Both the position numbers and the translations under genes were made by a program. Shown here piece by piece: positions 16,105 through 44,375 of a stretch of DNA of 64,000 nt. The DNA lies in contig OV121094.1 of the NCBI GenBank assembly GCA_921293015.1, positions 8,794,764 to 8,858,763 of the forward strand, read 5' to 3'. Source of the stretch: Phorcus lineatus. Taxonomy: Eukaryota; Mollusca; Gastropoda; Trochida; Trochidae. Positions within the stretch are counted from its first letter, which is position 1, and every line of letters starts with the position of its first letter. The notes beneath the pieces were generated by a model. It did no database searches and was not told the DNA's origin. It worked only from the letters and a program-made list of their open reading frames with translations.

Positions 16105-19100
16105 ATGAGGACAACGATGTTGACGACTGTGTTGGTTATGGTTGTAATGACAGGTGTGTACTATTCAGACTTAATATTTCCCCTTTACATTGTCTTTTTT
16201 AAACTAAGGCAATGTTACTCAATTTCACGCCGATAACTACTGAAATATTAACCTACATTATTAAGTAAATAAATGCCTAACAATAACTCTCTCAATTTAA
16301 ATACTATGTGGGTCATAAAACATTTTCACTATCTTTCTTAATTGTTTCTTGTGCATGAAGAATTCAAAGTTACACGTTGTCATGGCAATTTTAAATATGA
16401 TGACGCTTATCAGTTCAACAGGACGTCGAGTTGCGGCAAGCTTCGAAGTTTATGTATTGTTATAGTGTGGATTTTTGTATGTGATATTGCATTTGGAACA
16501 GAAGTTAATCCATGTCTTCGGAAAATCAAAAGTTTTCTAATAAGGTATTTACTGATCCTAATAATCCGGATTATCCCCCGCTCATATCACATGTCGATTT
16601 GTCTATGTCTTAATAATCGCCTTGTCGTACCCCATTTTTCTCATACCCCATTTTTCTCATACCTAATTTTTCTCATACCCCATTTTTCATTTCCCCATTT
16701 TTCATGAGAAAAATGAGGATGTTGCACCACTTTGGGAAACGCCTGCCTTCATATTTTGATACATGTTATAGATAACTTTAAAGCACTTTACACTTATGTT
16801 ATTTCTAAGAATTTTTAGCCAAAGACCTCTTCGCAAAACAGTGTCGACTGTTTTACCAAGTTCAACGAAAACACAATAGAGTCATCGAGTATCGATTTAC
16901 TGAGGCTAAACAGATTTCATTCCTCACCAAAGTGGGTTTGACCATCGTTCAAAACTTCATGATGCAGTAATGGATTTACTACTGGAAACCGCTTCTTATA
17001 TTTGATGTTAAAAATTGAAAGGGAGGGATCTATACCAGAGCACCAAATATTCTTTGCTGAATTACGTGAAAATAATCTGCTGTACTTTTACAACTTTTAA
17101 AACCTAATGAACATAAAATATGTATTATACAATACTTATATTAAAATTGGTTATAGAGAAGAAAAATCAATAGTACCTCATGTCATTTCGCGACCCGGCT
17201 TTTCAAAATCTTAGCGCCGATAAACTACGTCATCAATACCGGTACGTTTCCTTTTAATTGAAAAGTTTTTACTCTAAGTCAAATTTTTTAATCTTAATAA
17301 CCCAAATATTAGCTTCAGTACCATGCTTGAAGCGGATTTTTGAGGAACAATATATCGATGACATATACATGTATATGTCAATCAAAATGGTCCCTCGAAT
17401 TTCGTTTCCACAAAAATTATACCGACAGGACCTCCTCTTTAATCATCTCACCATTGCAATTCACTTCAGACTGTAATTCCATGACATAACACTTGTTCTT
17501 TTTCAGCCGTAGTTTTCGGTGAATGTCCAGCGGATTACGAGGAACAGCTGGGAGAATGCATCCAAATATTTGGACAAATCTACAAAGAAAAGGACCCTGT
17601 CAAATCTTGCATGTATGTGAAATACTACCATGTTTATCAATTTTGATTCCAAACATGTGTTTTACCATGTGAATATAAATAGATGGAAATGAGTTTAGAC
17701 CCTGCAATCGGGTGTCATTGGGATGTTTCGGCAATTTTTATACCTCAAAAATAGTTTACGATGCCGCCAATAAAATTAGTTGATATACATCGTGAAGCAT
17801 GGCTTATTTATTGAAGATTAAGCGTCTATTCGTTATGCAAATGGAAATACAGAGACAGAGACACAAAGAAATTAATATTGTTTTCAGAAAAATACAGTTA
17901 AATTAGAACTAGAACTATGTGTAAAAATAGTCAGCATTTTAAGGTTACCATCTTGTCATTGTTTGAAATACCGCTTGCTCTTCTCATATTGGTTGTAGGT
18001 CAAAGTCCGTAAATAGTCAGAACATTCAGTCAAATATTCCCTTGATGTTATGGCAGACTTAAAGGACGCATAAATTTGCAGTAGTTTAACCAAATCAAAA
18101 GTACATATAGTTCAATGAAGTTGTTTAATACACCTGTAGGGTGTTGTATATTGGGAACCACTTGAGGATTGTTAAATGTATAATTTGTGTAAAAACATCT
18201 TGTCTGTTATAATGACGTATTCAGTGTGGAAAAGTACGTCCTACTGAAGACGCTGTATCCCTACGCATGACCTTACAGGGGCGTAGGAGCGAATTTGAAA
18301 GGGGGGGGGGGGGGGGGGGGGGGGCTTGAATTGAAATTTTGTTACCAAAAAAAGGAAACTTGCTTGCTTGCTTGAAATCCCATCTTATCATCAATTAGGA
18401 CATAATACTGAAGTTTAAGGACATAATACTGCAGTTTAAGGCTGAATGTGCCACAGTTAGAGGTTGTAACAGGTGATGAAGAGACAACATGCCTTGATAT
18501 ATAATGAAATTCACTTAATGTGTGTTGTTTGATTGGATGTTTTAGTTCTACCCTCAGAGTAGTTTTAGAACTACCCTCAAAGTAGTGCATAGTAATTTTT
18601 TTTAACAATACTAGACTTTGTTCACAGTTATACAATGGATACCGTCCATTGTGTTGTCGGTGTTGCGTCCGTTTGTTGTGGCAATACAAAGGCTACATGG
18701 CTACTCGACAACATGCCCCTGGATGACATGACGACAACATGTAAGATGTTATTGTAGCAATTACCATTGCTAACAGTATGTTGTATGTAAAATTTACTTC
18801 AAACTATCAATTCTTTTAAGAATAAAACAAGGCTATCAGTCTATAACTACATTTAAATATATTCTATTAAAGTGTTTATTTCATGTTTCGAAAAGAATCT
18901 CGTGAAATATTGGTCCCAATAAAATCCTTTCCGTAAAAACTCATCAGTTTCTCATCATTATAACCCATCAGTTTGTTCAATCTTTTTTCAGGTTCGGATG
19001 AAACGTATGTCAACCCTTGTTGTAAGTATAGAATTTATTTCTTTTTGTTCTTTATCCAATCTCTTTTTTAAATCGTTCTATACAAATACCCGGCATAGCC

Positions 19101-19865
19101 AAATTGGATGTGTTGAATGTGATTTGGTCATTCAAGTTAGGTAGTGAATTTTGATCTGATAACGAGGCTGTGGCTAAGCAGAGTAATCTGTCGTAAAGCG
19201 AGGGTGTCGTGTTACATGACTTTAAAACCATTGGAACAACCCTACAATGTTTTAAACATTTTCATTAAATGTTCAATTCTATTTTTGGATGCCTGCAATT
19301 TAAGTCGGGGCTGCTATCAGTTTGTGTTCGCTTTCCACCGCCGCCGCCGCACAAGGTCAAGGTCACAGGAAGATCACGACTTATGCAGGGTTTTACGAAA
19401 ATTATTAAGGCTTTTTAAAATGACATGATTGATATAACCAATGAAAAATGATTATTGATTGTGTGACCTTAAATATCAAAGCACAATGTCACGAGACATG
19501 GGTTATGGTCATTTTCATCCTTTAATCAAATTTTGAAACAAGAAATATGTGTTGATAAATTAGATACAAATTTTCTTAATTTATCATTCCATCTCTCCTT
19601 ACAAAGACAAATGCAATTACCCTAAAAAAGCTCTAAACATAAAATCGATTGCGTATTCTAAAATATATATTTCAACAGTCGAACGTTGCCTTTTTTAATA
19701 GCTACACACGAGTATTTGGTATTCCTTTCATTTACATTCCTCGTCTGCATGCATACTGCAGGACGATATAGATTTAAAGCTTAATGATATATAACATACT
19801 ATAAAGATAATAAAGCGTAATAAAAACATGATAATATAAATGTCTTTTTTTTCTATTTTGCAGGA
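16105..19865 (+). CDS. Secreted eight-cysteine protein, family member 1 (five exons)
   Basis: Exons are 16105-16153, 17507-17612, 18628-18740, 18992-19021 and 19864-19865. All have AG acceptors and GT donors, and the junction phases are 1, 2, 1 and 1. The product is 99 residues. A signal peptide (MRTTMLTTVLVMVVMTAVVFG) should be cut near residue 21, before ECPADYEEQLGEC. The mature part has eight cysteines with spacing C-10-C-16-C-8-C-7-CC-20-C-8-C and ends SDETYVNPC. The stop codon is T from exon 4 plus GA from exon 5. The gene at 41033 has the same structure and exactly the same cysteine spacing, with about half of mature residues identical, which argues strongly that both are real genes. 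I do not recognise the family. A small extracellular disulfide-rich protein is the only safe call. Intron 2 carries a 24-G homopolymer. Confidence 0.8.
16626..16716. repeat. Minisatellite, 16-bp unit, in intron 1 of eight-cysteine gene 1
   Basis: The unit CATACCCCATTTTTCT recurs about four and a half times from 16626, with small changes. The array ends in a short palindrome around TTTTTCATGAGAAAAA. Confidence 0.85.
18301..18324. repeat. Homopolymer run of 24 G
   Basis: An uninterrupted run of G lies in intron 2 of eight-cysteine gene 1. A similar run of 18 G is at 46304-46321. The lengths may be affected by sequencing. Confidence 0.95.
18397..18595. repeat. Two short tandem duplications in an intron
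   Basis: A 21-bp unit with AGGACATAATACTG occurs at 18397 and 18418. A ~25-bp unit around CTACCCTCAGAGTAGTTTTAG is repeated at about 18547-18592. Both are simple tandem duplications just before exon 3 of eight-cysteine gene 1. Confidence 0.7.
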
Positions 19866-44000: not shown

Positions 44001-44375
44001 GATTGTGGTTCTACGATTATGGGTGATCGGGTTAGTAAGCTTTGATTTTCAGGAGCAAATACAATGTGCAAAATGTAACATTGTTTTATAAGAACTAGGC
44101 TACTACGTGCAACTGGCCCTATAAGTAAGTAAATATAACTCAGGAGGTACCACTCAAAGGACAAAGCATTTTCGTTCAAAATAAGGCTGTAAACATGAAA
44201 TTGGTAAAGTATTTTCGAAAATATAAATTTTCAGTCGAAAGTTGTTGTGAATGCTACACACACACACACATGTATTCGTTATTCCCTTTCTTTTGTGTTT
44301 TTTGATGAATAATAATAATAATAAGCAGTATTCAATAATGCATTATGAAAAATAACTGTTCTTTCCTTTCCAGAA
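41033..44375 (+). CDS. Secreted eight-cysteine protein, family member 2 (five exons)
   Basis: Exons are 41033-41081, 41929-42034, 42699-42811, 43223-43252 and 44374-44375. The lengths (49, 106, 113, 30 nt) and phases (1, 2, 1, 1) equal those of the gene at 16105. The 99-residue product has a signal peptide ([16 protein letters not shown], then GLFG) and a mature chain starting [13 protein letters not shown]. The eight cysteines have spacing C-10-C-16-C-8-C-7-CC-20-C-8-C. The segments [17 protein letters not shown] and SDETYVRPC are nearly shared with gene 1. The stop is T from exon 4 plus AA from exon 5. An AATAAA at 44441-44446 is a good poly(A) signal. Function is not recognised; an extracellular disulfide-rich protein is inferred. 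Intron 1 carries a recent 201-bp tandem duplication. Confidence 0.8.
41447..41855. repeat. Recent tandem duplication, ~201-bp unit, intron 1 of gene 2
   Basis: TATGTTTGATATATGTTGGG begins copies at 41460 and 41661. The copies differ by only a few bases and one-base indels. Confidence 0.9.
43616..43721. repeat. (AT)n microsatellite
   Basis: About 105 bp of uninterrupted AT in the last intron of eight-cysteine gene 2. Confidence 0.97.
43830..44110. mobile_element. MITE-like remnant, family of 9382-9747
   Basis: Contains GGATACTTGATTGTGGTTCT and CGATTATGGGTGATCGGGTT, matching TGATACTTTATGCTACGACT and CGGATGATCGGGTTGGG at 62025-62060. The ends are decayed. Confidence 0.4.

Follow-up and report, generated by a model that had tools for sequence, protein, structure and literature searches.

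The stretch of DNA analysed here, referred to as the window (64,000 nucleotides, C29:8794764-8858763 of the 957.8 Mb assembly), contains two genes, A (16105-19865) and B (41033-44375), which were rebuilt from the sequence with coding exons of 49, 106, 113 and 30 nt in both, equal phases and four introns each (all GT-AG). Their products have 99 residues each and a common cysteine spacing, C-10-C-16-C-8-C-7-CC-20-C-8-C. The first-pass annotation had placed two five-exon genes with equal exon lengths, phases and spacing at these coordinates, and the rebuilding bears this out. The features of the two genes are as follows (window positions):

16048..16054, plus strand: TATA-like box TATAAAA of gene A, seen in the sequence
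16105..16153, plus strand: gene A exon 1, 49 nt, containing the start codon and most of the leader
17507..17612, plus strand: gene A exon 2, Cys1-Cys3, 106 nt
18628..18740, plus strand: gene A exon 3, 113 nt, with Cys4 and the adjacent Cys5-6 (CC)
18992..19021, plus strand: gene A exon 4, remainder of the Cys7 codon and Cys8, 30 nt
19864..20020, plus strand: gene A exon 5, GA of the stop T/GA followed by 3' UTR, end guessed
41033..41081, plus strand: gene B exon 1, 49 nt
41929..42034, plus strand: gene B exon 2, 106 nt
42699..42811, plus strand: gene B exon 3, 113 nt
43223..43252, plus strand: gene B exon 4, 30 nt
44374..44501, plus strand: gene B exon 5, AA of the stop T/AA followed by 3' UTR, end guessed

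The Cys7 codon of gene A straddles the exon 3/4 junction, and the stop codon of both genes is split by the last intron (T/GA in A, T/AA in B). Exon 4 supplies the T and exon 5 the remaining two bases of the stop, so that everything beyond these in exon 5 is 3' UTR and the end points given earlier (19865 and 44375) are exact. Near the guessed 3' ends there are ATTAAA motifs at 19942 and 19995 in gene A, and an AATAAA at 44441 in gene B. A TATA-like box was sought upstream of gene B and none was found; A has one, as do two further members described below, F and D. Intron 1 of gene B holds two adjoining copies of about 205 bp that are 95.6% identical (41452-41857).

In a tblastn search within the window, gene A matched exon 2 of B at E 6.5e-11 and exon 3 at E 8.9e-11, and the likeness between both genes is therefore not due to chance. 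DNA identity between A and B was 78, 68, 66 and 90% for exons 1 to 4; six 60-base stretches taken from the ends of introns 1-3 gave 47-61% (control: 30 random 106-base pairs aligned as the exons were, mean 48%, maximum 56%). Three stretches upstream of the genes, two of them overlapping, were 59-65% identical, nearly matching exons 2 and 3, and introns 3 and 4 contain short patches that align too; these observations count against a simple picture in which only the exons were kept. Another patch, 19983-20020 in A versus 44463-44501 in B (85%), lies in or just past exon 5. At the level of the mature protein, all eight cysteines and 34 of the 70 non-cysteine positions are identical, in agreement with the earlier statement that about half of the other mature residues agree. 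Judged from their sequence, A and B are real spliced coding genes of a small, locally duplicated family with no relatives recognised in Pfam or PDB.

Further members, which the first-pass annotation did not contain, are a lone exon 1 inside the window (F) and three members outside it (C, D and E), situated about 112-166 kb beyond B:

34368..34374 (window), plus strand: TATA-like box TATATAA upstream of F, seen in the sequence
34423..34471 (window), plus strand: F, lone exon 1, 16 codons and 1 nt, donor GTGCGT
C29:8951057-8951162, minus strand: E, lone exon 2, from the genome search and the profile scan
C29:8959147-8959195 (exon 1) to C29:8954890-8954919 (exon 4), minus strand: D
C29:9004900-9005005 (exon 2), 9004254-9004366 (exon 3) and 9003864-9003893 (exon 4), minus strand: C

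The cluster spans about 194 kb. The family had been called tandem, which holds for A, F and B, directly oriented on the plus strand, but not for E, D and C, which are on the minus strand. In whole-genome protein searches A had 10 matches, B 10 and C 8, and 27 of these 28 lie in this single C29 cluster; the sole match outside it (C17, E 9.66, one stop) was rejected as chance, and the roughly 100 kb upstream of the window gave no match in these searches. The genome search proceeds exon by exon and scores only the best candidates. With B as the query, exon 3 of C and of D reached no better than E 1.06 and 1.27; remote relatives in other parts of the genome may therefore have escaped it. With A alone, the search recovered exon 2 of four members (B, C, D and E) and, from B and C, also exon 3, each at E of 2.6e-4 or less; exon 3 of D came at E 0.2. 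The window plus 200 kb downstream (264 kb) was also scanned with simple exon profiles derived from these same members, which scored 52-59 for exon 1 (next best 27.2), 87-106 for exon 2 (next best 16.4), 55-64 for the first half of exon 3 (25.8) and 34-44.5 for exon 4 (next best 25.8), separations that are partly due to construction. The genome search with A alone is independent evidence for the members beyond these member-derived profiles.

Gene C keeps exons of 106, 113 and 30 nt, with a candidate last exon supplying the rest of its stop (T/AA); neither the profile scan nor a strict search of 12 kb upstream found an exon 1 for it. In D, exon 3 has 104 nt, which gives CC-17-C, one loop shorter. 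With the usual 106-nt exon 2, a TAG is formed at the exon 1/2 junction of D; with an AG 6 nt downstream, exon 2 would have 100 nt and be in frame, and the product would have 95 residues and eight cysteines and end in a candidate exon 5. Because this AG avoids the TAG, D is no longer called broken, and its assignment as a pseudogene was dropped. Exon 4 of D ends in A, so that with the candidate exon 5 the stop comes one codon later and unsplit, unlike in A, B and C. All eight cysteines are kept in every pair of the four members (8/8 in 6/6 pairs); the identical spacing claimed earlier needs qualifying, since one loop of D has 17 rather than 20 residues.

A second AG ending exactly 6 nt into exon 2 is present in A, C, D and E (CCGTAG, CCGCAG, AGGCAG and GCGTAG) and absent from B:

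17507-17512 (window): second AG of A
C29:9005000-9005005: second AG of C
C29:8951157-8951162: second AG of E
same place in exon 2 of D: second AG of D

It is a possible tandem acceptor, the use of which would remove two residues near the leader cleavage site.

The upstream regions of F and A can be aligned (78/115 positions), and no exons 2-4 for F were found between F and gene B. F may be a relic, or it may serve gene B as an alternative first exon, for which its phase is suitable. The segment between A and F (26523-33320) carries the remains of a probable non-LTR retroelement, including an endonuclease-like ORF (27296-28729, Pfam E 1.3e-4, below the family cut-off) and a reverse transcriptase ORF (30860-32110, Pfam E 5.7e-40). 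Other features of the surroundings are: an ORF with an RNase H domain on the minus strand (6726-7241, Pfam E 8.7e-07), probably from a retroelement; a 351-aa ORF with an FkbM methyltransferase domain (52648-53703, Pfam E 4.3e-10); an ORF with a cysteine-rich end and no Pfam match at E 0.001 (63198-63575), possibly one exon of a further cysteine-rich gene; and runs of N (200 at 49485-49684 in the window; 5000 at C29:9039448-9044447).

Outside the cysteines, the six pairs of A-D are identical at 21-34 of 67-70 residues (31-49%). Codon models (4 sequences, A-D, 78 codons) gave an omega of 0.63 (MG) and 0.68 (MGK), and an omega of 1 was rejected under MG (p 0.019; log-likelihood -941.47 free versus -944.22 at omega 1). 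By NG86, dN was 0.33-0.54 and dS 0.64-1.03, with dN below dS in all six pairs; by YN00 and LWL85, dN slightly exceeded dS in the pair B/C, YN00 giving no estimate for A/B, A/C and A/D. These data fit A-D being coding and weakly constrained, with the cysteines fixed. The earlier proposal of selection on a disulfide fold with diverged loops stands as far as the fixed cysteines are concerned, but the remaining residues are only weakly constrained (omega 0.63-0.68). An omega below 1 gives no sign of diversifying selection. Diversifying selection is often seen in immune or reproductive proteins.

The N-terminus of the products is hydrophobic and adjoins the first cysteine, and eight cysteines are conserved; the products are putative disulfide-rich proteins, probably secreted. 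The computed charge at pH 7 was -9.1 for A, -3.1 for B, -7.3 for C and -11.1 for D, and the pI was 5.23 for B and 4.05 for A, C and D, a value which we take to be the floor of the program. Helix periodicity was significant in segment 2 (DPVKSC..VCC; 12 of 2000 shuffles as strong) and not in segments 1 and 3 (296/2000 and 1222/2000 shuffles as strong). AlphaFold2 gave low-confidence models for exon 3 alone (helices 3-17 and 21-28, pLDDT 62), with a helix covering most of segment 2, and for exon 2 alone (a short helix and two strands, pLDDT 58).

The framework had been described as unfamiliar, and sequence and profile searches against Pfam and the PDB sequences upheld this. Pfam-A (24736 models) returned no family at E<=10 for A and B and no family for the four members of alignment A1, in which the rows of C and D held junction letters absent from the DNA; the PDB sequences gave no match at E<=10 with A (phmmer) or with the profiles of A1 and A2; and NCBIfam, a bacterial and archaeal library whose silence carries little weight, returned no family for the five members of alignment A2. 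HMMER filters discard weak matches. Five peptide strings of the family had no occurrence in the literature searched, con-ikot-ikot combined with bivalve had no literature match, and no description of the family was recognised among the matches listed for bivalve eight-cysteine, CRP-I, DUF19 and lineage-specific secreted families, or for disulfide frameworks and clam haemocytes. Absence from these catalogues argues only weakly that the family is new. Helical disulfide domains, among them the DUF19 type, offer a lead only: they share with the present family a probable secretion, the richness in cysteines and a probable partly helical make-up, but no Pfam model matches the present family at E up to 10.

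Within the literature compared, the nearest described bivalve analogue is the mussel CRP-I family, a cysteine-rich multigene family which, in the excerpts available of its description, changes residues on a fixed cysteine array (PMC10138031). It resembles A-D in these respects: cysteine-rich multigene family, fixed cysteines and changing residues (PMC10138031). According to the same excerpts, the CRP-I array has six conserved cysteines (C-C-CC-C-C, knottin array) with variable loop lengths; a propeptide with a dibasic site precedes it, and its coding sequence is in exon 4, the last one (PMC10138031), whereas A-D have eight cysteines distributed over exons 2-4, loops that are constant except for one in D, acidic products, and a first cysteine straight after the leader. 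Membership of CRP-I was set aside because the cysteine number and the gene layout differ from those excerpted (PMC10138031). A cone-snail conotoxin, as far as the text available describes it, also has eight cysteines including a CC pair, but it is a 40-residue peptide with the framework C-C-C-C-CC-CC and two CC pairs (PMC3705398), in contrast to the roughly 78 residues and the order C-C-C-C-CC-C-C of the present family, to which no PDB chain matches by sequence.

Taken as a whole, we tentatively favour, at somewhat less than even confidence, a local family of secreted, four-disulfide proteins, perhaps with an extracellular binding or defence role. A hydrophobic leader of about 21 residues would direct the product into the secretory pathway, where eight cysteines would close four disulfides round a domain of some 78 residues, compact, acidic and probably at least partly helical. 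The cysteine scaffold would be held while the other residues drift, and copies would be gained, inverted and lost locally. In the weakest step of this scheme, the protein would be released to the body fluid or mucus for extracellular binding or defence, and its variants may bind different foreign molecules. A bolder version, to which we give only a doubtful standing, would see an undescribed four-disulfide domain (C-10-C-16-C-8-C-7-CC-17/20-C-8-C) confined to one animal lineage and acting as a variable extracellular recognition scaffold; in three of the four genes, A, B and, through its candidate last exon, C, nothing but the last splice would complete the stop.

A substantial possibility, short of probable, is that these genes form a branch of a known family of secreted cysteine-rich proteins (DUF19-like, saposin-like or another helical disulfide family) that has diverged too far for the profiles used to recognise it. 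About 78 residues and four to five paralogues offer little material for a profile search, the filters of HMMER would drop weak matches, and the combination of partial helicity with a CC pair is reminiscent of several secreted helical disulfide families; against this, not one Pfam family was matched at E up to 10, nor any PDB sequence by phmmer with A or by the two profiles. It is rather improbable that the proteins are signals between individuals or gametes (pheromone-like or reproductive) instead of defence molecules. Small disulfide-rich paralogues diverging on a fixed scaffold, as found here, are also typical of pheromone-like and reproductive proteins, but omega is below 1 and no link of the locus to reproduction was seen.

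Decay, with the members as relics of a family that no longer makes protein, would be in keeping with the fragments E and F, the lack of a recognisable exon 1 in C, the TAG at the exon 1/2 junction of D with the usual acceptor and a fairly high omega. We regard it as very unlikely, as A and B have intact reading frames and a full set of splice sites, omega is below 1, the in-frame AG 6 nt downstream spares D the stop, and exon identity between A and B exceeds intron-end identity. Least likely of all is a cationic antimicrobial peptide family like the mussel myticins, mytilins, CRP-I or defensins, which would suit clustered, cysteine-rich, probably secreted genes, but against which speak the acidic mature proteins (net charge -3.1 to -11.1 in the four members) and the eight cysteines over exons 2-4, compared with six in the last exon in the excerpted account of CRP-I (PMC10138031).

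What the local family of secreted proteins proposed here means depends on its fold. Unless the fold turns out to be new, this is a new family whose kind is common. Should it belong to a known family as a branch, its interest would be modest, since secreted cysteine-rich families with local duplications are a common feature of invertebrate genomes. A new fold would add a compact natural scaffold, built on disulfides, in which half or more of the other residues can change, and the locus would be a small, bounded cluster in which the gain, inversion and loss of copies may be traced.
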